A stretch of DNA of 42,413 nucleotides, from contig JACSRE010000197.1 of assembly GCA_014879945.1 (NCBI GenBank), positions 1-42,413 of the forward strand, in the 5' to 3' direction. Under the pieces are notes generated by a model that was not told where the DNA came from, did not search any database, and saw only the letters and a program-made list of their open reading frames with translations. Of the stretch, positions 1-15,980 are shown one piece after another; within the stretch, counting starts at the first letter, position 1, and every line of letters begins with the position of its first letter. The DNA comes from Myxococcus sp. (GTDB lineage Bacteria > Myxococcota > Myxococcia > Myxococcales > Myxococcaceae). The translations under genes were made by a program, and so were the position numbers.

Positions 1-272
1 CCTCCCGCGGCGCCGCCGCCCGCTGAGCCGCCGCCCATCGCGTTCGGCGTCTCGCACTGCCCGCTCTGGCACGTCTGTCCGGTGCCGCAGGTGCGGCACT
101 CGGCGCCGCTCGACCCGCAGGCGGCGATGTTGCTGCCCGACTGGCAGTCACCGTTGGCGTCGCAGCACCCCGTCGAGCAGGTCGCAGGCCCGCACCGGCG
201 CACGGGCGGGGTACACGAGAAGAACGCCGCCGGCAGCAGCGCGGCGAGCACGACGAGACGAATCGAGTTCAC
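1..272 (-). CDS. Cys-rich lipoprotein, N-terminal part only (3' end off the window)
   Basis: Only about 90 codons are inside the window and there is no stop before the left edge. The GTG start at 272 has a GAGGAAC ribosome site about six bases upstream. The protein opens with a hydrophobic signal ending in AFFSC, so Cys20 is the likely lipidation site. It continues with a Cys-dense segment (motifs CGPATC, GCCDANG, CRTC, SGQC) and a Gly-rich linker begins at the edge. The first ~80 residues closely match the start of the next gene (371-4921), so the two are tandem paralogues. By analogy it is an envelope lipoprotein whose missing part probably carries Cys-rich or beta-propeller repeats. Function is unknown and the C-terminal content is inference. 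Confidence 0.75.
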   Translation of the reverse strand, partial: MNSIRLVVLAALLPAAFFSCTPPVRRCGPATCSTGCCDANGDCQSGSNIAACGSSGAECRTCGTGQTCQSGQCETPNAMGGGSAGGGAAG

Positions 273-370: not shown

Positions 371-3300
371 TCAGCGGCAGGTGCCGGGCGCCGCGACCAC
401 CGCCCGGGCCCCCGGGGCGCCGATCAGCACGACCAGATCTCGCGTCGAGTCGGCGTTGGTCCGCGCCAGCACCACGTCCTCCACCACCGTGCCGGGCGAG
501 TAGCCGCTGGCTACCGACGAGAACCCGAAGGACGCCGCCGCGCCGGGGAGCACCGACACCACCGAGCTCGCGCTGCCGGCCGAGGCCAGATCGAGCAAGC
601 CGTCGTTGTCGAGATCGGCCAGCACCTGCCGAGGCGGGAGGATGGGGATCGAGGTCGAGCTCTGCAGGGTGAAGCCCCCTGCCCCGTTGCCCGCGTACAT
701 GTACCGGCCGAACACGAGATCGGGCTTGCCGTCGCCCGTCATGTCACCGGCCTGCACCGAGAAGTTGGTCGCCGTCGCGGTCGACAGCGACGTGCCCACC
801 AGGAAGCCCACCGAGCCAGGCAAGGCCACGTTCAGCCAGGGCTGCAGGGCGTTGAAGGTCGAGTTCGCGGTGATGAGATCGCGGCGCCCATCGAGGTTGA
901 GGTCGGCGAACGCGAAGCTCGAGACCGCCGTCGTCATCACCGTCACCGGCGGCGCGAAGCTGCCTGAGCCCAGGTTGCGGTACACGTCCACGCCCACCGC
1001 GGAGCCGACGATCAGGTCCTGCGCGGCGTCGTTCGAGACCTCGGCGATGGCCATGAAGGTGGGCTGCGCGCGCAGCGGCAACACCGTGGGAGGGCTCAGG
1101 GTGGAGTTGGTCGCGCCCAGGCGCACCTCGAGCACCGGGCCCATGCCGCCGTCCATCGACCCAAGCGCCGCCACCACGAGATCCTGCGAGGCGTCGCCGT
1201 TGAGGTTGCCGATGGCCGTGCGGTCACCCCGGGTCGAGAAGAGCGGGCCCGCCGTGAAGGCTCCCGTCGCCGACCCGAAGAGGACCTGCGACGTCGAGTC
1301 CTGGGGCACCGTGCCCGAGATGCTGCACTCGATGCCCAGCTGGTTCGCCGAGGTGCAGCTGGTGTCGGGCGTCGAGTAGGTGCACGCAAGGAGGCTCGAG
1401 AGCAGCGAGCTGGAGCATGACGGGCTGCGCATGACGGGGGCGAGCGACGACGCCGACGCGTAGAAGTAGTCGTACCAGCTGCCCAGCCCCACCGAGCGGC
1501 AGGCGACGTTCATCGTCGTCCCCGACGGGAATGAGATCGGGGCGCAGACGGGCCCCCACTGGCCGTTGACCAGCACCTCGAGCCGGCCCTGCACCGTGTT
1601 GTTGACGGTCGTGACGGGGTCGACGAGGCGGGCGTCGGGACCCGAGAAGACCCCCGCCACCGGGCCGGTCGCCACCACGTCAGAGAAGCCGTCTCCGTTG
1701 AGATCGCCCGCCACGATGCGGGTGGCGTTGGGCACGCTGGTGCCCGTCAGCGCCGCGAAGCCGCCGCTGCCGTTGTTGACCGCGGTGACGAGGTTGGTCC
1801 CCGACGGCGAGAAGAGCTCGGGTCGCCCGTCTCCCGTCACGTCGACCGCCGCCAGCCCGTTGAAGAAGGTGACGCCGAAGGTGATGCCGAGCACCTGGGC
1901 GGCCGAGAACGTGCCTCCCACCTGGCTCACGAAGACGCGCACGTCGGTCGACGCGATCACCACGTCGCGCCGGCCGTCGCCGTTGACGTCGGCGATCACG
2001 ATGGCGCGCGCGGCGCCCGGCAGGGCCAGGTAGCTCGAGGCGCCGAAGGCCGGGGCGCTGGTCAGCGGGAACACCCGCGCGCCGTACGTCGTGCCTGCCG
2101 ACACCACCGGCACCACCACGTCGGGAATGCCGTCGGCGGTGACGTCGCCCACGTCCATCATGAAGGCCGAGCCCGAGACGCCGGTGGTGAAGGTCTCGCC
2201 CGCGGGCAGCTGCGCCAGCACGGCGGACGCAGAGGAGAACGGCGTCGTGCCGTTGCCCGTGCCGGGGTAGACGTAGATGGCGTTGCTCGCCGCGGTGGCG
2301 ATGAGGTCGAGGTTCGCGTCGGCGTTCACCGCCGCGGCGCGCACGTTCGAGACGGTGCCGATGCCCAGGCCCGCGCTGACGCCGGTCGAGAGGGGGCTCC
2401 CGGTCAGGCCATTGCCCGCGAAGAGCGCCGCCGACTGCGTGCCCGACGAGGTGTTGAAGCTGAAGACGACGTCGGCCGGCGCGGCGCCCGAGAACTCGCC
2501 GATGGTGGCCGAGGTGGGGGCGAACGAGCCGCCGACCGCCGACGAGGCGGTGACGGTGTACCGGGTGAAGGTGCCCGTGCCGCTGTTGCGGAGCACGTCG
2601 ACCGAGGTGCTGGTGCTCCACAAGACGATCTCCGGGCGCCCGTCTCCGGTGAGGTCGCCCGCCACCAACTGCAGCGGCACCACGCCCAGCGAGGTGGTGG
2701 TGAAGGTCGTCGAGAAGGTGCCCGACGGGCCCGTCATCGAGGCGTTGGGCAGGCCGCGGCGAACGTACAGCGTCGACGACTGGGCCGTCACCATGTCGGC
2801 CAGCCCGTCACCGTCGACGTCCACGATCAAGAACGGGAACGAGGAGGTCGTCATCGCGACCGACGGCAACATCGACGCCAGGCCCACGCCCGACGCGCAG
2901 AACGCGCGGCACTCGCCCTGGGAGCAGCGATCGCTGGCGTTGCAGACGGCGTTGCAGGCGCCGCAGTGGCTCCCGTTGGTCTGGGTGTTGACGCAGGCGC
3001 CGTTGCACGAGGTGATGCAGCCCGTCGTGCAGATGCCGTTGGAGCCGCAGACGCCGCGCTCGAGCGCGACCGTCGAGGAGCAGACCGCGCAGGTCGGGCC
3101 GCAGGCGAGCGTGTAGTCGGTCGGCACGCACTGGTTGCCGTTGGCCGGGCAGCGGTTGGTGCCGGCCCCGCACTCCCACCCGCAGGCGTACTGGCTGGTC
3201 GGCGACGGGCGCGCACAGGTGGTGGTGGTGTTCGGCGGCCCTGCCGGGCAGGCGTTGCAGCTGGTGCCGCAGGTGTCGACGCTGCTGTCGGCGACGCACT

Positions 3301-4921
3301 GCGTGCCGCAGCGGTGGAAGCCCGACATGCAGGTGAAGTCGCAGACGCCGGAGGTGCAGACCGAGGTGCCGTTGGCCGGGGGCGTGCACGTCTGGCAGCT
3401 CGGCCCACAGCTGGTGAGCGAGTCGGCGACGCAGACGTTGTTACAGAAGTTGGGCGTCGTCGTCGACGCGCAGCGCAGGCCGCAGTTGGTGCCGTCGCAG
3501 GTGATGGTGGTGCCGCTGCCCACCGGGCCGTCAGGGCACGGGGTGCACCGGTTGCCGCAGGTGTTGACGTTGAAGTTGGTCACGCACTGGCCGTTGCACT
3601 CGTGGTACCCGACGTTGCACTGCACGCCACAGCTGGTGCCGTTGCAGGTCGCGGTGCCGTTGGCGGGCGCTGGGCACGGCGTGCACGAGGCGCCGCAGGT
3701 CTGCACCGAGGTGTTCGGCGCGCAGGCCGAGTTGCACTGGTGAAAGCCCGCGGCGCAGGTGTAGGTGCACTGGCCGGCCACGCACTGCGGGTTGGTGGCG
3801 CCCACCGGGGGCGTGCACGTCTGACAGCTCGCGCCGCACGAGGTGATCGACTCGGCCACGCACTGGCTCCCGCAGCGGGCGAAGCCGGGGTTGCACTGGA
3901 AGGTGCAGGCCGGCTGGCCGCCGCCGGCCGACATGCACTGCGCGATGGCGTTGGCGGGCACCGGGCAGGCGGTGCAGCTGTTGCCGCAGGTGGCGACGTC
4001 GAAGTTCGAGACGCAGTCGGTGCCGCACTGGTGGAAGCCGGTGGCGCAGACGAAGCCGCAGTCGTTGCCGTCACAGGTCGGCGTCGCGTTGGGCGGCGTG
4101 GTGCAGGCGTCGCAGCGGGTGCCGCAGGTGAGCGCGTCGAAGTTCGAGACGCACTGGTTGCCGCAGCGGTGGTAGCCGGCCGCGCAGGTGAAGTCACAGG
4201 CGCCGTTGGTGCAGGACGGAATCGAGTTCGGCCCGCCGCTGCAGCTGAGGCACTGGGCCCCGCACGCGGTGACGGTGTTCACCGGCACGCAGCCGCCGCC
4301 GCACGAGATCGAGCCCGTGGGGCAGACGCAGACGTTCCGCATCGGGTCGCAGATCTGCCCGTTGCCGCAGTTCTGGTTCGTCTGGCAGCCGAACTCACAC
4401 TTGTTGCTGGCGAGGTTGCAGTAGTGGCTCGCCGGACACGAGGTCGGCGTGCACATCGTCGGCAGCGCCTGACAGCTGCCGCTGGCGCAGTACTGGCCCG
4501 CGGTGCAGGCGCGGCCGCACATGCCGCAGTTGCTGAAGTCCGTCTGGGTGTTGCTGCACGAGGAGCCGCAGAGGGTCAGCCCCGCCGAGCACTGGAGCAC
4601 CACTCCGCCACCCGCGCCGCCGCCCGCGCCACCGGCGCTCCCGCCGCCCATGCTGCCGCCGGTGCCCCCGCCCGTCGCCGCGCCGCCACCCATGTTGGGG
4701 GTGGTGCACTGGCCGCTGTTGCAGGTCTGGTTGGTGGAGCAGGTGCGGCACTCCTCACCCTTCGCGCCGCAGCCCGTCACCGAGCCGCCGCTTTGGCAGA
4801 GCCCGTTGGCGTCGCAGCAGCCGATGGGGCACGTCGCGGGGCCGCACGGACGCACGGTAGGCGGACAGCCGAAGAGCGAGAGCGCCCCCGCGCAGAGGAT
4901 CAGCAGCTTGAGTTGGTTCAT
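371..4921 (-). CDS. Cys-rich FG-GAP/VCBS-repeat lipoprotein with an SRCR-like domain
   Basis: A 1516-residue exported lipoprotein. The ATG at 4921 is preferred over an upstream in-frame ATG at 5014 because it gives a clean signal peptide with lipobox LFGC (Cys19). Then come a paralogue-like Cys segment, a Gly-rich linker (~78-107) and nine tandem ~48-residue Cys repeats (residues 200-634). From ~690 there are many FG-GAP/VCBS-type units with calcium-loop patterns such as DVDGDG, DLTGDG and DLNGDG, expected to form a beta-propeller. Around 1110-1199 these are interrupted by a segment resembling a scavenger-receptor cysteine-rich domain (GRLEVLVNGQWGPVC, ACRSVGLG and later Cys). It is probably surface-exposed and adhesive or binding, but the ligand is unknown. 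A paralogue lies directly downstream. The architecture call is firm; the role is inference. Confidence 0.85.
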   Translation of the reverse strand: MNQLKLLILCAGALSLFGCPPTVRPCGPATCPIGCCDANGLCQSGGSVTGCGAKGEECRTCSTNQTCNSGQCTTPNMGGGAATGGGTGGSMGGGSAGGAGGGAGGGVVLQCSAGLTLCGSSCSNTQTDFSNCGMCGRACTAGQYCASGSCQALPTMCTPTSCPASHYCNLASNKCEFGCQTNQNCGNGQICDPMRNVCVCPTGSISCGGGCVPVNTVTACGAQCLSCSGGPNSIPSCTNGACDFTCAAGYHRCGNQCVSNFDALTCGTRCDACTTPPNATPTCDGNDCGFVCATGFHQCGTDCVSNFDVATCGNSCTACPVPANAIAQCMSAGGGQPACTFQCNPGFARCGSQCVAESITSCGASCQTCTPPVGATNPQCVAGQCTYTCAAGFHQCNSACAPNTSVQTCGASCTPCPAPANGTATCNGTSCGVQCNVGYHECNGQCVTNFNVNTCGNRCTPCPDGPVGSGTTITCDGTNCGLRCASTTTPNFCNNVCVADSLTSCGPSCQTCTPPANGTSVCTSGVCDFTCMSGFHRCGTQCVADSSVDTCGTSCNACPAGPPNTTTTCARPSPTSQYACGWECGAGTNRCPANGNQCVPTDYTLACGPTCAVCSSTVALERGVCGSNGICTTGCITSCNGACVNTQTNGSHCGACNAVCNASDRCSQGECRAFCASGVGLASMLPSVAMTTSSFPFLIVDVDGDGLADMVTAQSSTLYVRRGLPNASMTGPSGTFSTTFTTTSLGVVPLQLVAGDLTGDGRPEIVLWSTSTSVDVLRNSGTGTFTRYTVTASSAVGGSFAPTSATIGEFSGAAPADVVFSFNTSSGTQSAALFAGNGLTGSPLSTGVSAGLGIGTVSNVRAAAVNADANLDLIATAASNAIYVYPGTGNGTTPFSSASAVLAQLPAGETFTTGVSGSAFMMDVGDVTADGIPDVVVPVVSAGTTYGARVFPLTSAPAFGASSYLALPGAARAIVIADVNGDGRRDVVIASTDVRVFVSQVGGTFSAAQVLGITFGVTFFNGLAAVDVTGDGRPELFSPSGTNLVTAVNNGSGGFAALTGTSVPNATRIVAGDLNGDGFSDVVATGPVAGVFSGPDARLVDPVTTVNNTVQGRLEVLVNGQWGPVCAPISFPSGTTMNVACRSVGLGSWYDYFYASASSLAPVMRSPSCSSSLLSSLLACTYSTPDTSCTSANQLGIECSISGTVPQDSTSQVLFGSATGAFTAGPLFSTRGDRTAIGNLNGDASQDLVVAALGSMDGGMGPVLEVRLGATNSTLSPPTVLPLRAQPTFMAIAEVSNDAAQDLIVGSAVGVDVYRNLGSGSFAPPVTVMTTAVSSFAFADLNLDGRRDLITANSTFNALQPWLNVALPGSVGFLVGTSLSTATATNFSVQAGDMTGDGKPDLVFGRYMYAGNGAGGFTLQSSTSIPILPPRQVLADLDNDGLLDLASAGSASSVVSVLPGAAASFGFSSVASGYSPGTVVEDVVLARTNADSTRDLVVLIGAPGARAVVAAPGTCR
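3020..4324 (-). repeat. Nine tandem ~48-residue Cys-rich protein repeats
   Basis: These are coding repeats within the large lipoprotein, residues about 200-634. Each unit follows the plan C-x2-G-(Y/F)-x2-C-x3-C-V, about eight residues, C-G-x2-C-x2-C, a short Pro/Thr/Asn-rich stretch, then C-x4-C. Typical pieces are CAAGYHRCG, CATGFHQCG and CNPGFARCG. Units vary from about 46 to 53 residues and differ in DNA sequence, so they are old duplications, not a recent expansion. Six or more Cys per unit suggests disulfide-bonded modules outside the cytoplasm. Confidence 0.8.
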
Positions 4922-5045
4922 GAAGATCAGTCCCGGAAGGTGAGGCCTCGGCCTACAGACACCTGAATTGGCGGAGAACCGCAAGAGCGGCGCACCTCTG
5001 ACGACATGCCCCACCCTCGATTCAAGGGGTTGTGTATCGAAACGG

Positions 5046-6293
5046 CTACTCGGCGCGCATGGCGTCCACCGGGTCCAGCCGCGCCGCCCGCGCCGCCGGG
5101 TAGATGCCGAACACCAGGCCTACGCCCGAGCTCATCACCAGCGACAGCACGGCCGCCCAGATCGGCACCGCGGTGTAGAGCCCCAGCGCCCACCGCCCCA
5201 GGCCCGCCAGGCCCAGGCCGATCGCCAGGCCCACCAGCCCTCCGACCAGCGACAGCGCGAAGGCCTCGGTGGCGAACTGCGCGAGGATTCGGGAGCGGCG
5301 CGCGCCGAGCGCCTTTCGCACGCCGATCTCGCGGGTCCGCTCCGAGACCGACACCAGCATGATGTTGAGAATGCCGATGCCGCCGACCAGCAGCGAGAGC
5401 AGGCACACGCCGAAGGTGGCCGCGGTGATCACCTGCGAGAGATCGTTGAGCGTCTTGGCCATCGACTCGTTGGTCGACACCTCGAAGTTGTTGTCTTCAT
5501 CGGGCGCCAGGCGGCGGCGCTGGCGCATCAGCCGGGTCACCTCCTCCATCGCGGGCTCGAAGCGCTCGAGATCGTGCGCCTCGACGCTGATCGAGACCGT
5601 GCGCCGCTTGCCGTAGAGCGCGAGGAAGCCGGTCATGGGCGTCAGCACCACGTTGTCGAGGTTGAACAGGCCCAGCACCTTGCCGCGCCGCTCCAGCACC
5701 CCGATGACGGTGAAGGGGCGCCCGCGCAGGCGCACCTCCTGGCCGATGGGGTCGAGGCTGGGGAAGAGCTTGTCGGCGACGTCGGGCCCGAGCACCGCGA
5801 GCTGGCGCCCGTCGAGATCCTCCTGCTCGTTGAAGTAGCGCCCGTTGGCCACCACCACGCCCGACGTCTCGGGGTACTCCACGGTGGTGCCGAGGATGAA
5901 GACGCCCGGCTGGGTCTCGGTCATCGCGGTGCGCACGCGCTGGCCGGGCTGCCACGACGAGGCGCTGGTGCGCTTCACCGACGGGCAGTGCTCGAGAATG
6001 GCCCGCCTGTCGTCGAGGGTCAGCACCGGCCTGGCGGCGATCTTGTTCCAGTTGAGCCGATCGCCCCCGCCGAACCGAAAGCCCTGGGGCCACTTGTCCA
6101 CCCGGAAGACGTTGGCGCCCAGCTGCGAGAGATCCTTGTTCACCTTCAGCCGCAGCCCCTCGAGCAGGGCCATCATCGTCATCACCGTCGCGACGCCGAT
6201 CACGATGCCCAGGAGCGTCAGCGCGGTGCGCAGCGGGTGGGCGATGAAGGTGCCCGCCGCCAGCCTCAGGTTGTCGAAGAAGGCGCGCAGCAT
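5046..6293 (-). CDS. MacB/FtsX-type ABC transporter permease (second permease of the operon)
   Basis: A 415-residue inner-membrane permease of the MacB/FtsX family, without a fused ATPase. One membrane segment lies near the N-terminus (~22-45), followed by a large periplasmic domain (~50-280) and three C-terminal helices (~288-400). Family motifs are GGIGILNIMLVSVSERTREIG and the closing FGIYPAARAARLDP. The ATG at 6293 has AGGAG five bases upstream; a GTG at 6299 overlaps the previous stop but would sit on that ribosome site, so ATG is preferred. It follows another permease of the same family by two bases, so the pair probably forms a heterodimer energised by the ATPase at 7519-8226. Substrate is unknown. 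Confidence 0.88.
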   Translation of the reverse strand: MLRAFFDNLRLAAGTFIAHPLRTALTLLGIVIGVATVMTMMALLEGLRLKVNKDLSQLGANVFRVDKWPQGFRFGGGDRLNWNKIAARPVLTLDDRRAILEHCPSVKRTSASSWQPGQRVRTAMTETQPGVFILGTTVEYPETSGVVVANGRYFNEQEDLDGRQLAVLGPDVADKLFPSLDPIGQEVRLRGRPFTVIGVLERRGKVLGLFNLDNVVLTPMTGFLALYGKRRTVSISVEAHDLERFEPAMEEVTRLMRQRRRLAPDEDNNFEVSTNESMAKTLNDLSQVITAATFGVCLLSLLVGGIGILNIMLVSVSERTREIGVRKALGARRSRILAQFATEAFALSLVGGLVGLAIGLGLAGLGRWALGLYTAVPIWAAVLSLVMSSGVGLVFGIYPAARAARLDPVDAMRAE

Positions 6294-6295
6294 CG

Positions 6296-7522
6296 TCACT
6301 CCTGCCTGAGCGCTTCGACCGGGTCGAGGTTGGCCGCCCGCGCCGCGGGCCAGATGCCGAAGAGCAGGCCCACCAGCGCCGCGAAGAGCACGCCGAACAC
6401 CACGGTGAGGGGCTTCACGGTCGCCGCCAGCGGCGTCACCAGGCTCAAGACCTTGGCCCCGCCCAGGCCCACCACCGTGCCCAGCGCGCCGCCGACCGCC
6501 GACACCACGATCGCCTCGAGCATGAACTGCACGATGATGGTGCGCTTGCGCGCGCCCAGCGCCCGGCGAACGCCGATCTCCCGGGTCCGCTCGCGCACCG
6601 ACACCAGCATGATGTTCATGATGCCGATGCCGCCCACCAGCAGGGTGATGAAGCCGATGCCCAGGGCGACGCCGTAGAGCGCGCCGGTGAGCTGCTGGTA
6701 GGTGCTGGCGAGCTGCTCGGGCCGGTTGATGGCGAAGTCGTCGGGCTTGTCGGGCGGCGTCTGGCGCGCGCGCCTGAGGATGCCCACCAGCTGATCCTCC
6801 ACCGCCTCGAGCTGGTCGGGGTTCTTCACCGCGATGCCGATGGTGTAGCTGCGCCGCCCCGCGAAGAAGCTGGTGAAGGTGCGGAAGGGAATGACGACCC
6901 GCAGGTCCTGCGAGCTGTCGAGCAGCTTGCCCTTGCGCGCCAGCGTGCCCACCACGGTGAAGGGCTTCTTCCCCACGCGAATCGACTGCCCCACGGGGTT
7001 GACGTCGGGGAAGAGCGTGTCGGCCACGTCGGCGCCCAGCACCGCCACCAGCCCGCGGTTGTCGTCATCGGACTGGGTGAAGAAGCGGCCCCGGCTGACC
7101 TCGAAGCCCGTCACGCGCGGCCACTCCTCCGAGGCCCCCGAGATCACCACCGCCGGCAGCTCGACGCCCAGGAAGGCCACGTCGGCGTTGTCGTCGACCA
7201 TCGGCGTCACCGTCTCGCAGAGGCTGCACTGCGCGCGCACCGCCTCGACGTGGGCCCGGGTGAGGTTCTTGCGGTTCCTGAACTCCCACCAGTTGCCCAT
7301 CTGCACCCAGGGCTGCTTCGAGACGTAGACCGAGGTCGAGCCCAGCGTCGCCAGCTGCTTCTCGAACGAGCTGTCGAGGCCCTGGGTGATGCCGAGGATT
7401 GCCAGCAGGGTGGCCACGCCGATGCCCACGCCCACGGTGGTCAGCAGCGTGCGCAGGCGGTGCGCCGAGAGCGAGCGCACGGCGATCGACGCGCCCTCGA
7501 CCAGGTCCACGCGCCAGCTCAT
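6296..7522 (-). CDS. MacB/FtsX-type ABC transporter permease (first permease of the operon)
   Basis: A 408-residue permease with the MacB plan: an N-terminal membrane helix around 25-47, a periplasmic MacB-PCD-like domain up to ~280, and three C-terminal helices. Motifs include [21 protein letters not shown] and the ending [21 protein letters not shown]. Its ATG overlaps the stop of the ATPase gene (ATGA), so translation is probably coupled. It resembles the second permease (5046-6293) throughout but differs in the periplasmic domain, which contains a two-Cys CSLC stretch absent from its partner. It probably pairs with that protein in a tripartite efflux or lipoprotein-handling machine with the adaptor and outer-membrane protein upstream. 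Confidence 0.88.
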
Positions 7523-8226
7523 GGCCGAAGGCCTCCGAACGCCACCTGCTCGCCGGGCCCGTCGCCGACCACCAGCCCGTCCGACAGCCGCACCGCCCGC
7601 GGGCACCGCGCCGCCAGCTTCGGCTCGTGCGTCACCAGCACGATGGTGTGCCCCTGCTGGTGGAGCTCCTCGAACAGCTTCACGATCTCTTCGCCGGTGG
7701 CGCTGTCGAGGTTGCCCGTCGGCTCGTCGGCCAGCAGCAGCGACGGCTCGGCCGCGAGCGCCCGCGCGATGGCGACCCGCTGGCGCTGACCGCCCGAGAG
7801 CTCGGTCGGCTTGTGCAGCATGCGGTTGTCGAGCTTCACCTTCTGGAGCGCCTCGATCGCGCGCGCGCGGCGCACCTTCGCCTTCTCGCCCCGGTACACC
7901 AGTGGCAGCTCGACGTTGGCCAGGGCCGTCTCGCGGGGGAGCAGCTGGAAGTTCTGGAAGATGAACCCGATCTCGCGGTTGCGGATGTCGGCGAGGGCGT
8001 CGTCCGACAAGCGCGAGACGTCGTGGCCGTTGAGCCGGTAGGTGCCCCGCGTCGGCGTGTCGAGGCAGCCGATCACGTTCATCAGCGTCGACTTGCCCGA
8101 GCCCGACTGCCCGATGATGGCGACCCACTCGCCCTTCTCGATGTGCACGGTGACGCCGGCCAGCGCGCGCACCAGCTCGCCGCCCACCACGTACTCCCGC
8201 GCGATGTCGTCGAGCTCGATCAGCAT
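7519..8226 (-). CDS. ABC transporter ATP-binding protein, MacB/LolD type
   Basis: A complete 235-residue ATPase. Visible motifs are Walker [10 protein letters not shown] (39-47), Q-loop around FIFQNFQ (88-94), signature LSGGQRQR (143-150), Walker B LLLADEP (163-169) with GNLD following, and the switch His in VTHE (H200). [15 protein letters not shown] and ADEPTGNLD are typical of the LolD/MacB/FtsE branch, which powers mechanotransmission permeases. The ATG at 8226 lies four bases after the adaptor stop, and the gene ends by ATGA overlap with the first permease. It acts on the cytoplasmic face of the two-permease complex encoded next to it. Confidence 0.95.
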
Positions 8227-8230
8227 GGCG

Positions 8231-9499
8231 TCAACCGCGCTTGCCGCCCTTGCGGCCGCCCTGCCCCGGCTTCACGGCGTCGACCGTGTCCCCTTCTTTG
8301 AGCTCCTTGGCGAGCGTGCGGTACGGCCCCTCGACGATGCGCTCCCCCTCGGCGAGGCCCTCGACGATCTCGATGTCGGTGTCCGAGGCGATGCCGGTGC
8401 GGACCCGCCGAACGCTGACCTTCTGATCGGGGCCCACCACGAAGACCACCTTCGCGAAGCGGTCGCCGGTGCGGCCCTTCGGCTGCAGCGGCTTGCCCTC
8501 GACGGGCACCGCGGCGTCGCTGAGCGAAGCCTCGGGGCGCACCGTCACGGCCTGCACCGGCACCACCACCGCCGACTCGCGCTGCTCCGCGGTGATGCGC
8601 ACCTCGGCGCTCATGCCCGGCATCACGCCCGGCGGCCTCGAGGTGAGCGCGACGGTGACGGGGAAGCTGGTGGTCTCCTGCTCGGAGCCCTGGTTTCGAA
8701 TCAGCGCCTTCTGGGCGATCTCGACCACCGTGCCGTCGAAGGTCTGGCCCTCGAGGGCGTCGATCTTCACGTCGGCGCGCTGCTCCGCGGCCAGGTGCAC
8801 CACCTCGTGCTCGCCCACCTCGATCTTCACCTCCATCGACGCCAGGGCGGCCAGGGTCAGCACCACGTCTTCGTTGAAGTCGCTGCCACGCACGCGCTCG
8901 CCCACCTCACGCGTGCGCTCGATCACCGTGGCGTCGATGGGCGAGATGAGCGTCGTCTTGGCGAGGTTGTTCTGTGCTTCGTCGAGCACCGCCTGCTGCT
9001 GGCTGACGCGATCGTTGAGCGCCGCGACGCGCGATCGGGCGGCGGCGACCGACGACTGCGCGCCCTCGACCTCGGCCTGCGACGAGAGCCCCTTGGCCGC
9101 CAGGCCCTGCACCCGCTCCAGCTCGCGCTGGGTGCGCTCGACCTCGACGGCCGCGGTGGCCACGTCGGACTTCGCGGCGTTCTGCGCGGCCTGGGCCTGG
9201 CGCACGTTGGCCTCGAAGCGCCGGCGGTCGATGCGGCCGAGCACCTGGCCCTTCTTCACCTGATCGCCCTCCTTCACCGTCAGCTCGATCAGATCGCCCG
9301 AGAGGCTCGAGCTGATCTTCACCGTGGTGGCGGGCTGCACCTTGCCGGCCCCGGTGACGGTGCGGGTGATGGGCGCCCGCTTCGCCGCGCCCAGCTGCAC
9401 CTCGACGGGCGGCGGCGGCCGCTCCCTGAGGCCGGCCACGGTGATGGCGACGAGGCCGGCGACGATCACCAGCGCGATGAGGGCTTTCCACCAGGTCAT
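8231..9499 (-). CDS. Periplasmic adaptor (membrane fusion protein), MacA/HlyD family
   Basis: A 422-residue adaptor. An N-terminal membrane anchor ([21 protein letters not shown]) leads into a split lipoyl domain ([17 protein letters not shown] on one side, [12 protein letters not shown] on the other) flanking an Ala/Gln-rich coiled-coil hairpin (~95-175), then beta-barrel and membrane-proximal domains. This is the standard MacA/HlyD layout and length. The C-terminus is a short Gly/Lys/Arg-rich tail ([10 protein letters not shown]) of unknown meaning. The start overlaps the TolC-like stop (ATGA). It should bridge the inner-membrane permeases and the outer-membrane channel of the same operon. 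Confidence 0.92.
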
Positions 9500-10824
9500 G
9501 GGGTCTCCGCCGCGGCGACGGGGCCGCCGGTGAGTCGTTCGAGGGCGGCAGAGGCGATCTCCACGTCCACCCGGGTCTGGAGCTGCGAGAGCTCGGCCAG
9601 CACCGCGCGCGTCTGCGCGTCACGGACCGACAGGCTGGTGCTGGCGCCGGCGGCGTAGCGCTGAGCCTCGGCGTCGAAGCTCTCGTCGGCCAGCGCCCGG
9701 TTCTTCGCGGCCAGCGCGGCGATCTCACGCTGCGCGGCCATGGCGCTGGTGGCGCGCACGATCTCGGACTCCAACTCGATGGTGGCCTGCCGCTGCTGGC
9801 GCTCGAGCTCGGTCAGCTGGGTCTGCGCGCGGGCCACCTGGGTGTCGGTGGCGAAGCCGCTGAACAGATCCCACGAGAGGTTCACGCCGACGTTGAAGAG
9901 GTGCTGCCTGGCCGGGTCGACGAACAGCTCGGCGGTCGGGGCGGTGCGGTTGTAGCTCGCGTTCGCGCTCACCCGGGGCAGGTAGTCGGCGCGCGCGATC
10001 TCGACCGCGAGCTTCCCGCCCTTGCCCTGGGCGTCGAGCACCGCGAAGAGCGGCCGCCGCTTTCGGGCGAGGGTGAGGAGCGCGCCCGCGTCCTGGGCGC
10101 CGGGCAGGAGCGGCGCCTCGAACTCGGCAGGGCGCTGCGCCACCACGTCGCGCGGCGGCTGGCCCAGCCACTGAAACAGCGACGCCTCGGCCGCGATGAT
10201 GGCCTGGCGCTGGCGAATGACGGCGATGCGGTCGTTGCCGAGGTTCACCTCGGCGTCGAGCAGGTCGCGCTTCTGGGCCCGGCCGGCGGTGAAGAGGCTC
10301 CTGGAGCGCTCCAGCAGATCCGCGCTGCGCGCCGCGGCGTTCTCGAGCACCTTCAGGGTCAGTTGGGCGCGCAGCACCTCGTAGAACCGGCGCACCGCCT
10401 CGAGCTCACTCGAGGCCTGCTGCTCGGCCAGCTGCCCCTGCGCCGCTTCCTCGAGCGCGCCCGTGCGGGCCAGCTGGTTCCACCACCGGCCGCCGTCGTA
10501 GAGCAGCTGCGCGACCGTCAGCCCGAGCTGGAAGTTGCCCTGCGTGAAGGCAGGAATGTCGACCGGCCGCTGCACGAAGGTCACCGTGCCGTCGGAGGCG
10601 AACTGGGGCGCGGTGGTGAAGCGCCGCTGCGGGCCCCCCAGGGTCTGGGTCACGCCCAGCGACAGATCGACCTGCGGGAAGAGCACCGAGCGGGCGTCGG
10701 CCCGATCGAGCGCGGCGCGGCTGACCGCCAGCTCGGCGCGAACGGCGTCGAGGTTCTGGCGGGCCGCCTGTCGCACCTCTCCCAGAGTCAGCGGCGCGGC
10801 GGCGAGCAGGAGCGCGACGATCAT
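9496..10824 (-). CDS. TolC-like outer-membrane efflux protein
   Basis: A 442-residue outer-membrane factor (OEP/TolC family). It has a short signal sequence (MIVALLLAAAPLTLG) followed by the expected pattern of long amphipathic helices rich in Ala, Leu, Gln and Glu, in two similar halves. Aromatic and Gly-rich beta segments such as GVTQTLGGP and FNVGVNLSWDLFSGF should line the barrel. The ATG at 10824 has GGAGG nine bases upstream and overlaps the stop of the YIP1-like gene (ATGA). It ends by overlapping the adaptor start. In context it is the exit duct of the MacAB-like system; substrate unknown. Confidence 0.92.
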   Translation of the reverse strand: MIVALLLAAAPLTLGEVRQAARQNLDAVRAELAVSRAALDRADARSVLFPQVDLSLGVTQTLGGPQRRFTTAPQFASDGTVTFVQRPVDIPAFTQGNFQLGLTVAQLLYDGGRWWNQLARTGALEEAAQGQLAEQQASSELEAVRRFYEVLRAQLTLKVLENAAARSADLLERSRSLFTAGRAQKRDLLDAEVNLGNDRIAVIRQRQAIIAAEASLFQWLGQPPRDVVAQRPAEFEAPLLPGAQDAGALLTLARKRRPLFAVLDAQGKGGKLAVEIARADYLPRVSANASYNRTAPTAELFVDPARQHLFNVGVNLSWDLFSGFATDTQVARAQTQLTELERQQRQATIELESEIVRATSAMAAQREIAALAAKNRALADESFDAEAQRYAAGASTSLSVRDAQTRAVLAELSQLQTRVDVEIASAALERLTGGPVAAAETP

Positions 10825-11709: not shown

Positions 11710-12288
11710 TCAGCCCACTGGAGGCTGCCGCGCCGCGCGGAGCGTCGCCAAGGCGGCCAGCGCCTCGTGCCGGGCCTGCGCGGTGTCGAAGTTCTTCGCC
11801 GACAGCAGCACCTGGAAGACCCGCCGCTGGCCGACGTCAACGCCGCGCACCACCAGCGAGTCGCCGACCTCGAGCAGCGAGGTCACCACCGCCCAGTCGA
11901 ACGTCAGCGCTCCGGCCGTCAGGCCCTGCTCGTCCACCGCGATGGGCACCCCCGCCTGCATCGTCAGCCCCGCGCCCTCGGCGAGCTTCGAGCGCCCCAG
12001 GAGCGCCAGCGGCACCAGCAGCGCGGTCGTCGCCCAGACCAGGGGCGCGATCACCAGGAGCCCGCACAGCCCCACCGCCACCGGCTTGTCCACGACGCTG
12101 GCCACGAAGGCCAGGCCCACCACCAGCACCAGCGACACGCCCACCCGGACCCGCCGCGTCAGGCGCTGGCTGCGCTCGAGGAAGGTGGTGAAGCGCTGCT
12201 CCAGCACCGCCACCGCGGGCAGCGCCTCTCCGTCGCCGGCCACCACCATCGGCTGGGTGTGAACCTGCCCCACGAACGGGCCGATCAA
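11710..12288 (-). CDS. Small membrane protein, possible YcxB/PH-like C-terminal domain
   Basis: A 192-residue protein that starts at TTG (12288) with GGAGG four bases upstream; this TTG overlaps the stop of the acyltransferase gene (TTGA). An N-terminal soluble part (residues 1-45) is followed by two adjacent membrane helices (VGVSLVLVVGLAFVASVV and VAVGLCGLLVIAPLVWATTALLVPLAL). The C-terminal domain contains FDWAVVTSLLEVGDSLVV and a later LLSAKNF. This Trp-containing strand pattern resembles YcxB-like/bacterial PH domains, but the match is weak. It is co-transcribed with the LpxL-like gene. Function is unknown. Confidence 0.6.
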   Translation of the reverse strand: MIGPFVGQVHTQPMVVAGDGEALPAVAVLEQRFTTFLERSQRLTRRVRVGVSLVLVVGLAFVASVVDKPVAVGLCGLLVIAPLVWATTALLVPLALLGRSKLAEGAGLTMQAGVPIAVDEQGLTAGALTFDWAVVTSLLEVGDSLVVRGVDVGQRRVFQVLLSAKNFDTAQARHEALAALATLRAARQPPVG

Positions 12289-13211
12289 GACGCCTCCTTC
12301 GGCGCCGGCGGGGGCGCCACCTTCCACCGCCGATGCAGCCACAGCCACTGGTCTGGGTACTGTCGAATGAGGCCCTCGATGATCGCCGTCAGCCTCGCGG
12401 TGTGCTCGCGGAGCGCGCGCTCCTTGTCGCCAACCTCGGCGAAGGGCACGGGGCCCTCGACCACCATCTTGAGCCGGGACTCTTCGCGCACCGCGGCCAC
12501 CACATACACCGGCGCGCCCGAGACCCGCGCGGCCATCGAGATCGCCGGGGTGGTGCTGGCGAGCCGCCCGAAGAAGGGCACGAAGACGCCGTCCTTCGCG
12601 GGCAGCACCTGGTCGATGAGCTGCACCACCGCGCGGCCGCGGCGCAGCGCCGACACCATGCGCAGCAGCGCCCCCCGCTGGAGGATCAGCTCGACGCCCG
12701 CGGCCTTGCGGTTCTTGACGACCCACTCGTTGAAGGCGCCGGCGAGCGGCCGCACCACCGCGCTGAACTGGCACCCACGACGGGCCATCACCTCGGCGAA
12801 CAGCTCCCAGCTGCCGAGGTGGGCCGAGGCCACCAACACCGGCCGGCGCCCGTCCACCAACACGTCGAGGCCCTTCCAGTCGGCCACCTCGACGGCCTGC
12901 GCGAGCTCCTCGTCGGTCAGCAGATCCGAGGTGACGGCCTCGACCGCGGCGAGCGCGAGGCTGTCGTAGACGCCGCGGGCGATGGCGCGGCGCTCGGCGG
13001 CGCTCTTCTCGGGGAACGCCTGCGCGAGGTTGTCGAGGGCCACCCGGCGCCGAACGCCGAGGCGCCACGCGACGGAGGCGACCAACGCCGCCAGCCGCCG
13101 CCGGGTCGAGGGCGCGAGCCACCGCAGCCACCGCATCGCCGCGCCCACCACCAGCCGGCCGAGCGGCCCCCCTGGCGTGATGTCGGGCTTGCGCGCGACG
13201 GGCGACGTCAC
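12285..13211 (-). CDS. LpxL/HtrB-type lysophospholipid acyltransferase
   Basis: A 308-residue enzyme of the lipid A late-acyltransferase family, expected to transfer an acyl chain from acyl carrier protein to a lipid A-type precursor at the inner membrane. The catalytic HX4E motif is in SAHLGSWE (His131, Glu136). Other family segments are RRRVALDNLAQAFPE near residue 60, LIDQV with a following VPFFG, and PDQWLWLHRRWK near the C-terminus. The GTG at 13211 overlaps the kinase stop (GTGA); longer in-frame readings extend into the kinase gene and look like Arg-rich shadow sequence. Whether the product is lipid A or another acylated lipid (for example an ornithine lipid) cannot be told from sequence. 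Confidence 0.88.
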   Translation of the reverse strand: MTSPVARKPDITPGGPLGRLVVGAAMRWLRWLAPSTRRRLAALVASVAWRLGVRRRVALDNLAQAFPEKSAAERRAIARGVYDSLALAAVEAVTSDLLTDEELAQAVEVADWKGLDVLVDGRRPVLVASAHLGSWELFAEVMARRGCQFSAVVRPLAGAFNEWVVKNRKAAGVELILQRGALLRMVSALRRGRAVVQLIDQVLPAKDGVFVPFFGRLASTTPAISMAARVSGAPVYVVAAVREESRLKMVVEGPVPFAEVGDKERALREHTARLTAIIEGLIRQYPDQWLWLHRRWKVAPPPAPKEAS

Positions 13212-14968
13212 TCGATGCTGTCCGGGATCGCCGCGGCCTGGCAGGCGCTCATGCCGCGCTTCACCGCGTCGACGTTGCCGTTGAGCCGCGCCGCGTCGCC
13301 GTAGGCCTTGAGCGCGGCGGCGCACTGCCCCTGCCGCCTCAGCGCGTCGCCCTGGGCCAGCGCGTCCTGCACCCGCTTGATGTCGGCCAGCAGCTTCTCG
13401 GCGTCGGCGTGGGCGGCGGTGTCGGCGGCGATGTTCTCGAGGTCGATGCGCGCGGTGTTGAGATCGCCCTTCTCCCAGTTCGTCTGCGCCGACTTGAGCT
13501 TCTCGTAGGCCGCCTGCTCGTGCACCGCCTTCACCGCGGCCGCGGCGATGGTGGTGGCCGCGTCGTCGACCTTCGGCGGCGCCTCGGGCCCGGGCTCGAC
13601 CACCGGCTTCACCTGGACCACGGGCTCGACGACGGGGCCGGTGGCGTTGGCGACGGGCGGGCTGCCTCCCCCCAGGAGCACCGCGAGGCCGCCACCGATG
13701 ACGGCGACCAGCACCACCACCAGGCCGATGATCGGGCCCTTCGAGCGGGGCGCCTGCGGCGGCAGGGACACGTCGGGCGCCGCGCCGCGCGGGCTGATCG
13801 AGCCGACGCCGGGCAGCTCGGTGTGCGGGTGCGGCCCGGTCGCCAGCGGCCCCGGCGGCACCGTGGGGTGCTGGAGCAGCGTCGACTCCACGGCCGCGCG
13901 CCCCGCCTCGGTGCCCGGGAGCGCGACCCCCACGCCCGTCGCGGGCAGCGGCGTCGCCATCGCCACCGACGCGCGGCTGGCCTCGGACGCCACGCGCTGC
14001 AGCGGCGGCAGCGACAGGTGCAGCTGCGTCGGGAGCGCCTGCGACAGCGCCCGCGCGAAGGCCACCATGTCGGGGTAGCGATCTTCGCGCCGCTTGGCGC
14101 AGGCCTTGTCGAGCACCGCCTGCAGCGGCGGCAGATCGAGCTCGGGGAAGTACGAGCCCAGCCGCGGCAACGGCTCCATCACCTGCTTGCGCATGATCTC
14201 GGCGATGGTGTTGCCGTCGAAGGGCTGGCGCCCGGTCAGCGCCTCGAAGCAGACCACCCCGAGAGAGTAGACGTCGGCGCGAATGTCGACCTCGCGGCCC
14301 TCGACCTGCTCGGGCGACATGTAGCGGGGCGTGCCGGCGATCGCCCCGGCGACGGTCAGCTTGGTGCTCGCGTCCATCAGGCGCGCGATGCCGAAGTCGA
14401 GCACCTTGGCGTGCATGCCCCGCATGCCCTTGCGGATCATGATGTTCTCGGGCTTCAGATCGCGGTGCACGATCTGCTTCTCGTGCGCGTCGGCCAGCAC
14501 GTCGGCGACCTGCGTCGTCACCTCGATGGCCTCGACGATCGACAGCCGGCCGCGCTCGGCGATGGTCTTCTTGAGGTCGTCGCCCTCGCAGTACTCCATG
14601 GCGATGAAGAGGTTGCCTTCGTCGTCCTGGCCGAACTCGTGAAAGGTGACGGCGTTGGGGTGCACGACGCGGGCGTACGTCTTCGCCTCGTTGAGGAAGC
14701 GCCGCGCGATCTCGACGTCGGTCGAGAACTCGCTCTTGAGGAACTTGATGGCGACGCGGTGCCCGATGCCGACCTGCTCGGCCAGGTACACCGCCCCCAT
14801 GCCGCCCTGCCCCAGCTTCTTGATGATCTTGAAGCGGCCGGCGATCAGCTTGTCGACGAGGCGGTCACTGCGGTTGAGCCGAATCGTCTCGCTGCGCCCG
14901 CACGAGGGGCACTTCGGATCGTCCGCTTCGTATTCGGCACCGCACGCCTGACAGATGAAGAACGCCAA
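13208..14968 (-). CDS. Transmembrane Ser/Thr protein kinase with N-terminal zinc ribbon
   Basis: A 586-residue Hanks-type kinase. I place the start at a TTG (14968) with CAGGAG six bases upstream, because this keeps a zinc ribbon at residues 6-23 (CQAC and CPSC). The kinase domain (~44-310) has Gly-loop GQGGMGAVY, VAIK (K75), HRDLKPEN (D170), DFG (D191) and SPEQ, so all catalytic residues are present. A Pro/Ala-rich linker is followed by one membrane helix (about 409-433, PIIGLVVVLVAVIGGGLAVLL). The C-terminal domain (~490-586) has TPR-like helices and ends in a short Cys-containing segment. It is placed between a TPR gene and an acyltransferase gene. This is the myxobacterial Pkn layout; ligand and targets are unknown. 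Confidence 0.92.
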   Translation of the reverse strand: MAFFICQACGAEYEADDPKCPSCGRSETIRLNRSDRLVDKLIAGRFKIIKKLGQGGMGAVYLAEQVGIGHRVAIKFLKSEFSTDVEIARRFLNEAKTYARVVHPNAVTFHEFGQDDEGNLFIAMEYCEGDDLKKTIAERGRLSIVEAIEVTTQVADVLADAHEKQIVHRDLKPENIMIRKGMRGMHAKVLDFGIARLMDASTKLTVAGAIAGTPRYMSPEQVEGREVDIRADVYSLGVVCFEALTGRQPFDGNTIAEIMRKQVMEPLPRLGSYFPELDLPPLQAVLDKACAKRREDRYPDMVAFARALSQALPTQLHLSLPPLQRVASEASRASVAMATPLPATGVGVALPGTEAGRAAVESTLLQHPTVPPGPLATGPHPHTELPGVGSISPRGAAPDVSLPPQAPRSKGPIIGLVVVLVAVIGGGLAVLLGGGSPPVANATGPVVEPVVQVKPVVEPGPEAPPKVDDAATTIAAAAVKAVHEQAAYEKLKSAQTNWEKGDLNTARIDLENIAADTAAHADAEKLLADIKRVQDALAQGDALRRQGQCAAALKAYGDAARLNGNVDAVKRGMSACQAAAIPDSIE

Positions 14969-15008
14969 CGGGGGCTCCTGTGAAGACTGAACGTCCCGCG
15001 GGGCGCGG

Positions 15009-15980
15009 TCACTTCTCGGCGGGGAACCGGGTGCTGAACAACAACCGCTCCAGCTCCGAGGCGCCCACCTCGGGAGAATTGCCGAGGGCCAGCGAGGTGC
15101 GCAACACGGCCGTGCGGGGGTCTTCCTTGAGGTCGGCCTCCAGCGCCTTGAGGGCGCCGAGCTTGTCGCCCGCCTGGTAGAGCGACAGGCCGCGATAGAA
15201 GGCGTACTCCTTGTTCGCGGGGTCGGCCCGCAGGGCCTCGCCGAAGTGCTGGGTGGCGCGCTTGAAGTCACGCTCCCCGAACTCGGCCAGCCCGTCGAGG
15301 AACGCCGTCACGCCCACCGAGTTGGCCGCCGCCACCCCGGAGTCGGCGGCGATCTGGAACAGCGGCCGCGCGCTGCGCAGCGTCTCGGCGGGCAGCTTCT
15401 CGCTGCCGAGCGCACGCTTGTGAATGCCCTCGGCCTCGGCGACGGCCGCCGCGCGGAGCTTCTGCGCCATGTCAGCCAGCTCGGGGCCCAGGTAGCCCTC
15501 CCGCACCAGGGTGCGCAGCTCCTCCGCCGCGCCCTCTGGCCCCAGCACCACGCCTTTGTCGAGCTGGGCGAAGAACGCCGCGCGGGTCTCGACGTACTTC
15601 TGCGACAGATCGGGCGGCTGGCCCTTGGCGTTCTTCAGCTTGCGCTCGCACTGATCGCTCTCGGCCGCGGCCTTCTTGCGATCGGGCGAGTCGGGCACCG
15701 ACTTGAGGAACACCCGGTACGCGTAGCACCCGCGCATCAGCTGCTTGGCCAACACCGACGCGCGGCCAAGCTGCAGGTACGTCGCCACGTTGGCGGGGTC
15801 GACGCGGGTGGCCTTGAGGTACTGGTCGGCCGACTTGGCGTACTGCTTCTTGTTGTAGAGGCGGCTGCCCTCGGAGATCAGCGCGTCGGCGTTGCCCACG
15901 CCCGGCCCCACCAGCGCCTCGGCCAGCGAGAGCGAGGCCCACAACGCCACCGCCACCATCGTCACGCGCTCAGAAGCCAT
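15009..15980 (-). CDS. Exported TPR-repeat protein
   Basis: A 323-residue protein with a hydrophobic N-terminus (VTMVAVALWASLSLAEAL) that is probably a signal peptide, followed by TPR helices. The first clear unit is ADALISEGSRLYNKKQYAKS with DQYLKATRVDPAN (~31-65), and another lies near residues 235-285 (FKRATQHFGEALRADPAN, YRGLSLYQAGDKLGAL). The middle contains charged helices without a recognised fold. The start used (15980) overlaps the PEGA gene by 11 bases; a GTG or ATG six to eight codons further in is an alternative. It is co-transcribed with the PEGA protein and the Ser/Thr kinase, suggesting a scaffold role in the envelope, which is inference. Confidence 0.75.
   Translation of the reverse strand: MASERVTMVAVALWASLSLAEALVGPGVGNADALISEGSRLYNKKQYAKSADQYLKATRVDPANVATYLQLGRASVLAKQLMRGCYAYRVFLKSVPDSPDRKKAAAESDQCERKLKNAKGQPPDLSQKYVETRAAFFAQLDKGVVLGPEGAAEELRTLVREGYLGPELADMAQKLRAAAVAEAEGIHKRALGSEKLPAETLRSARPLFQIAADSGVAAANSVGVTAFLDGLAEFGERDFKRATQHFGEALRADPANKEYAFYRGLSLYQAGDKLGALKALEADLKEDPRTAVLRTSLALGNSPEVGASELERLLFSTRFPAEK

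Follow-up and report, generated by a model that had tools for sequence, protein, structure and literature searches.

At the left end of the window, by which we mean the whole stretch of 42,413 nucleotides analysed here, lie a gene that we call alpha and the 5′ end of its tandem paralogue, beta. Table 1 collects their features, together with those of a neighbouring group of genes of MacAB-TolC type.

Table 1. Features of the alpha locus, in window coordinates
Feature	Position	Strand	Basis or remark
Beta (tandem paralogue), 5′ end only; GTG start, lipoprotein signal	1..272	-	rest of the gene very probably on a second contig, C128
Alpha gene: Cys-rich, double FG-GAP propeller, SRCR protein (putative lipoprotein), 1516 aa	371..4921	-	ATG start
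Alpha, putative lipoprotein signal peptide ending in LFG-C19, residues 1-19	4865..4921	-	sequence, by eye
Alpha, Gly-rich linker, residues 76-107	4601..4696	-	sequence
Alpha, nine Cys repeats (CGxxCxxC units), residues ~220-656	2954..4264	-	motif count
Alpha, first seven-bladed FG-GAP propeller, residues ~682-1052	1766..2878	-	AF2 model and integrin alpha head matches
Alpha, second FG-GAP propeller, seven-bladed and containing the SRCR, residues ~1067-1516	374..1723	-	PLL3 lectin match
Alpha, SRCR domain, residues ~1096-1201, between FG-GAP units 8 and 9	1319..1636	-	profile, fold, alignment
MacB/FtsX-type permease 1	5046..6299	-	upstream of alpha, 124 bp gap
MacB/FtsX-type permease 2	6296..7522	-	
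ABC ATPase	7519..8226	-	
HlyD/MacA-type membrane fusion protein	8231..9499	-	
TolC-type outer membrane efflux protein	9496..10824	-	

The alpha protein reads as a lipoprotein with a Cys-rich part and a large C-terminal head. Its putative signal peptide ends in L-F-G-C19, which by eye resembles a lipobox, although Phe at -2 counts against it; a lipobox-like Cys is present at the N-termini of the full-length relatives. The first-pass annotation had described nine disulfide-type repeats, and a count of the motif agrees, finding 9 CGxxCxxC units at residues 220-614. Besides the six cysteines of the SRCR domain, the head has only Cys675 (2897-2899, minus strand) and Cys1515 (377-379, minus strand), both invariant in 10/10 rows of alignment A5. 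That these two might form a disulfide closing the head is only a guess, in a region where the AF2 model has pLDDT <50. PADLOC reported no match for the alpha protein, and promoter and terminator scans gave no excess over shuffles.

A profile search of the window's own genome reveals a second SRCR protein. The beta start sits 98 bp past the alpha stop, and contig C128 carries a beta protein. The C128 protein has no start and the window supplies a beta start; very probably, then, both belong to a single gene that stands in tandem with alpha. The same tandem order is found in genomes G002, G005 and G006.

Elsewhere in the window (12285-15980), genes for a lipid A acyltransferase, a serine/threonine kinase and TPR proteins lie in a row, and this row is close to alpha in G001.

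The link between the transporter and alpha may reflect an operon or mere neighbourhood. If alpha and beta were accessory parts or cargo of the adjoining MacAB-TolC type transporter, one would look to the order fusion protein, ATPase, permease, permease, alpha, which the window shares with G004, G005 and G006 as far as their stretches reach (those of G002 and G003 end short of the transporter region), and to the 124 bp between alpha and permease 1. However, in G001 alpha is preceded by other genes and MacAB is absent, and next to the homologues from g2 and g16 no MacAB match turns up in the available stretches of L046 and L047. We consider such a transporter role quite improbable.

Identity and predicted fold of the SRCR domain

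The first-pass annotation had seen in alpha the pattern of a scavenger-receptor cysteine-rich (SRCR) domain, naming the motif GRLEVLVNGQWGPVC, ACRSVGLG and later cysteines. All of these are present: GRLEVLVNGQWGPVC starts at residue 1112, ACRSVGLG and then four more cysteines lie downstream, and the segment has 6/6 of the group A cysteines. Profile searches bear the reading out. The segment alone matches Pfam PF00530 with 41.0 bits (E 2.5e-10; cut-off 26.1), and a PF00530 search of its own genome recovers it at 41 bits. Against the PDB, phmmer finds LOXL2 (1.8e-11) and CD163 (6.4e-11), and further PIT54, CD5L, DMBT1, M2BP and MARCO. An HMM built from 16 bacterial SRCRs, with the window's subfamily excluded, gives the alpha domain alone 51.8 bits, compared with 9.9 for the best of 2000 same-residue shuffles.

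This domain is easily overlooked. The default Pfam scan of the whole alpha protein shows FG-GAP and misses the SRCR because of HMMER's bias filter. The bacterial SRCR HMM under default filters likewise gives no match in the whole protein; with the bias filter off, it reports residues 1107-1200 at 47.0 bits.

We predicted the structure of the SRCR alone with AF2, using alignment A6 (63 rows, the window and 62 of 89 listed references), and obtained a model with pLDDT 82.0 and pTM 0.71. The predicted fold is that of an SRCR. The best 50 rows listed by Foldseek are all SRCR structures, and VIA-align places the model on MARCO (Z 11.2), SCARA1 (10.8), LOXL2 (10.7) and DMBT1 (~10), with rmsd 2.3-4.7 Å over 87-95 residues. 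The domain thus stands as first annotated except for its bounds, whose start we correct to about residue 1096, the site of the fold's RLV strand. We are virtually certain that this segment of alpha is a true SRCR domain.

The surrounding scaffold was modelled separately, by running AF2 on residues 675-1516 (842 residues) with nine relatives. This model has pLDDT 77.8 and pTM 0.73, and its weak parts are mostly near the SRCR, at the termini and in certain loops; in the SRCR region the block pLDDT is 31-71, and the pose of the domain on the propeller is not fixed by the model. FG-GAP_3 matches the whole alpha protein with 165.3 bits. By our count the FG-GAP units number fourteen: a motif search gives 13, and a further one near residue 870 was picked out by eye. 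In VIA-align, integrin alpha heads superpose on model residues 8-378 with Z ~27 (8zdg, for example, has Z 27.7 and rmsd 3.2 over 326 residues), and model residues 393-842 match the PLL3 lectin with Z 26.8 and rmsd 2.7 over 302 residues. From these placements and the fourteen units, we assign two seven-bladed propellers with the SRCR in the second one. The earlier view that the SRCR splits an FG-GAP propeller therefore holds as to the insertion, and fails as to there being a single propeller. Both the repeats and the seven-bladed fold of integrin-type FG-GAP propellers are found in alpha. A Foldseek search with the whole 842-residue model returned mostly the multi-propeller proteins SF3B3 and DDB1 at TM 0.20-0.30; we did not use it. 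VIA-align separated both propellers.

Cation ligands, constraint and proposed role

In DMBT1, the exposed cation sites comprise D1019, D1020 and E1086 (site 2) and D1020, D1058, D1059 and N1081 (site 3), and either D1019A or D1020A abolishes binding to three ligands (PMC7043408). We compared these positions across 112 bacterial rows: 7 alphas, 5 betas and 100 others. L045, an alpha missed by the default HMM search, was added to this alignment by hand, and L059 lies outside the 100 other rows. The six cysteines are kept throughout (7/7, 5/5 and 100/100). The ligand residues D1019, D1020, D1058, N1081 and E1086 are all kept in 5/5 betas, with D1059 being D or N, and D1019, D1020 and E1086 are jointly kept in 93/100 of the other bacterial rows. 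The window alpha has A, P, R, S and N at the five positions, and so lacks the ligand set; the seven alphas have none of the five ligands, except for one D in L045. As far as the aligned residues tell, then, beta retained the cation ligands and alpha lost them.

L059 itself (826-1776, minus strand) carries three consecutive SRCR-like domains missing the WGTVC Cys and the Cys before the last, and looks like a further degenerate type.

Has the alpha domain simply been decaying since? Its long branch in the SRCR tree and the missing cation ligands could be so read, and dN/dS (NG86) is higher in the SRCR than in the propellers in 3/4 alpha pairs (0.37-0.46 vs. 0.25-0.37). However, all seven alphas keep the six cysteines and a visible core of GR-EV, WG-VC and CRS-GL. 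Moreover, SRCR dN/dS over the four pairs is 0.28-0.46, at ~90 SRCR codons each, vs. 0.25-0.37 for the propellers (0.28 vs. 0.29 between the window and the L063 alpha), and therefore the domain is being maintained. A decaying remnant is very improbable; the SRCR of alpha is real, has its six cysteines conserved and is under constraint.

In beta, SRCR dN/dS is much above that of the propellers in 2/3 pairs, again at ~90 codons each, so that the beta binding module is possibly changing faster, in what is a small sample. The two pairs are L063/L064, with 0.91 in the SRCR vs. 0.34 in the propellers, and L064/L067, with 0.61 vs. 0.29.

The first-pass annotation suggested a multivalent surface adhesin, perhaps in prey or cell-cell contact. 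From anatomy alone this is plausible, because a lipobox, a Cys-rich stalk, integrin- and lectin-like propellers and an SRCR are found together. We lean towards alpha being an envelope lipoprotein, from a genus of Myxococcaceae, with a surface-exposed head, in which the SRCR would be an added binding module. The chain would run from a lipid anchor through a disulfide-rich stalk to a two-propeller head, presumably exposed at the cell surface, with the group A SRCR inserted in one of the second propeller's loops, where it may serve the head much as the I domain serves integrin alpha subunits. The tandem pair might then offer two chemistries. Beta could bind anionic surfaces in a cation-dependent way, like DMBT1, and alpha may bind its ligand, probably a protein, without cations, as CD6 does among animal SRCRs. 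The loss in alpha of the cation ligands that DMBT1 uses for binding (PMC7043408) argues against a straightforward transfer from the scavenger receptors of animals.

The protein could instead be a passive part of the envelope, and its SRCR a stable loop insert that is tolerated and has no ligand. Integrin FG-GAP propellers do tolerate inserts (PMC3192720), and nearly all of the cation ligands are lost in 7/7 alphas. Still, in one alpha pair the SRCR is constrained about as much as the propellers, and in three pairs somewhat more weakly; in beta the ligand set is intact. We regard a passive insert as rather unlikely, and a surface binding role as reasonably probable.

Position of the SRCR domain in sister proteins

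The alignment shows that the SRCR follows FG-GAP unit 8 in 7/7 alphas, and that it follows unit 9 in 5/5 betas and in the relatives L099 (genus g16) and L116 (g2). A search of the family with propeller 1 as query also found a full-length relative, L147 in G023 (genus g18), which has no SRCR. L147 aligns with window residues 26-1354 in a single alignment at 39% identity, and has eight Cys units, ten FG-GAP motifs and a C-terminal ACR; at both SRCR positions it has short loops and no insert. Searching G023 (100% complete) for PF00530 gave no match at E 10. Thus, the parent architecture exists without an SRCR, and the sister proteins carry theirs one blade apart.

The blades themselves can be matched across the insert. 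Downstream of its SRCR, alpha aligns best with unit 9: for two betas the scores are 113 and 121 (64 and 49 for the next non-overlapping unit), and for the SRCR-free protein 92 (68 for the next).

We built a tree from the propellers, leaving out the SRCR columns, and rooted it on g18, with 200 bootstrap trees. In this tree the five betas group together (100/99), as do the seven alphas (92/99), and in 200/200 bootstrap trees alpha and beta are each a single group against the other. The union of alpha and beta against the three outgroups has values of 39/25, which is no support for this union, and the tree favours no particular order of the duplication and the split from g2 and g16. Because both outgroups carry the SRCR after unit 9, the comparison favours the beta-like position as the older state. 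The SRCR would at first have stood after unit 9, and its shift to unit 8 would have come later, in the lineage of alpha. In g18, the lack of an SRCR may be original or may stem from a loss.

An SRCR could also have entered each sister gene independently, once per loop, with no move between blades. The same type of loop was used twice, and it may be a permissive place. Against this, the alpha and beta SRCRs of the genus lie together on one side of a branch, with all other bacterial and animal rows on the other (support 91, in a quick tree with few columns). Independent entry seems doubtful to us, and the SRCR quite probably moved by one blade rather than entering twice.

Bacterial SRCR domains and known systems

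Pfam lists bacterial members of the SRCR family, and we surveyed how they are distributed. PF00530 is found in 7/7 genomes of the window's genus, in 12/96 genomes and 3/26 genera of its family (11 over the cut-off), and in 16/195 genomes and 7/90 genera of its phylum (15 over the cut-off; this set overlaps the family set). A second scan, with two patterns containing VCDD or MD[DN]V and hence leaning to canonical SRCRs, returned 69 loci, every one with a title naming a MAG. They are mostly from Myxococcota (or Deltaproteobacteria by title) and Gammaproteobacteria, with a few titled Binatia, Acidobacteria, Gemmatimonadetes, Alphaproteobacteria, Chloroflexi, Nitrospinota and others. With 15/195 phylum genomes over the cut-off and these 69 loci, the taxonomic spread that the first-pass annotation had left to be checked is patchy yet widespread. 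As for eukaryotic contamination, we set it aside given the bacterial gene order around alpha, the long intron-free ORFs, contigs of up to 550 kb and the presence of lgt beside a gene with seven SRCRs.

The pattern-scan loci contain 122 SRCR domains in 78 ORFs. In the 49 of these 78 ORFs covered by Pfam architectures, the partners include DUF4215 (11), fn3 (7), Calx-beta (6), MopE (6) and LRR (5), and FG-GAP is outside the 25 commonest. By motif count, several FG-GAP-like units occur in the window relatives L062, L063, L064, L067, L099 and L116, and also in L077, L095 and L105.

SRCRs can also occur in number. In L074, from Candidatus Binatia, seven SRCR domains follow each other (4156-7329, plus strand; PF00530 7.8e-223) in a CD163-like array, on a contig that also carries lgt, a sulfatase and an FG-GAP protein. 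G185, of the window's phylum, has nine SRCR matches on contigs C19, C22, C61 and C123, one of them in a frame of 3444 aa.

To compare bacterial and animal domains, we used an SRCR tree of 118 rows and 101 columns with an arbitrary root. It leaves out domains below 60 bits, third and later copies per locus, L045, and L060, which is a copy of L056 (the latter appearing as L124). The seven animal rows fall on one side, with support 91 and the root being arbitrary. Within the tree, nineteen rows from Gammaproteobacteria MAGs and one Caldilineaceae MAG (several loci, L076-L113) form one starred clade. The Chloroflexota row within this gammaproteobacterial clade hints at transfer or misbinning. Many bins of the clade come from sponges, which are animals with very many SRCRs; the SB, RHO, IRC, COS and CAR bins are sponge metagenomes. 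Scanning viral contigs with the window SRCR gave no relative, and a canonical bacterial SRCR had no match in plasmid and phage collections.

The SRCR could be native to bacteria, with a large old pool in Myxococcota and Binatota of swappable surface modules from which animals drew theirs. We hold this to be improbable. If it were true, the window family would offer a living example of how such a module enters a propeller, shifts by one blade and changes its chemistry.

Our literature searches, which mostly did not cover subscription papers, found nothing on SRCR and myxobacteria, and no title or abstract opening reporting a bacterial SRCR; this is not proof of absence. The cited papers treat the SRCR as an animal recognition domain and mention other eukaryotes. 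Here the domain is conserved in surface-type proteins across several bacterial phyla, most of its copies retaining the cation ligands, and one of two tandem sisters has changed away from the cation-binding residues. The gene family amounts to a natural experiment on domain insertion, with the empty, the inserted and the shifted site in one scaffold, in which an event of the integrin I-domain type becomes testable in bacterial proteins. It also bears on the origin of an animal immune domain.

How does alpha compare with known systems? With the group A SRCRs (MARCO, SCARA1/CD204, LOXL2, M2BP) it shares the profile, the six cysteines and the predicted fold. It differs from them in being a putative bacterial lipoprotein that has its SRCR within a propeller loop and has lost the cation ligands. 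The SRCR of CD6 uses the same surface after a loss of calcium dependence, as described in PMC7043408; the likeness to alpha is one of chemistry only, and we claim neither a common ligand nor close kinship.

Part of the protein, its Cys-rich repeats, resembles the MXAN_6577-like proteins (NCBIfam NF041328), at 53.3 bits and thus below the cut-off of 100. Propeller 2 is like PLL3 of the Photorhabdus PLL/PHL lectins; unlike these, alpha is putatively membrane-anchored and far larger.

There is also a parallel in anatomy with the integrins. In integrin alpha subunits, the I domain is a binding module inserted in a seven-bladed FG-GAP propeller (PMC3192720, PMC12422189). Alpha also has a module in such a propeller, and its propeller 1 matches integrin heads. 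In contrast with integrins, the insert is an SRCR instead of a vWA domain, it sits in the second of two propellers, and no partner of the integrin beta type is known for the protein; it is not an integrin. An SRCR in a propeller, judged by this anatomy, would parallel the vWA in integrins and hence does not appear to be a new kind of arrangement.
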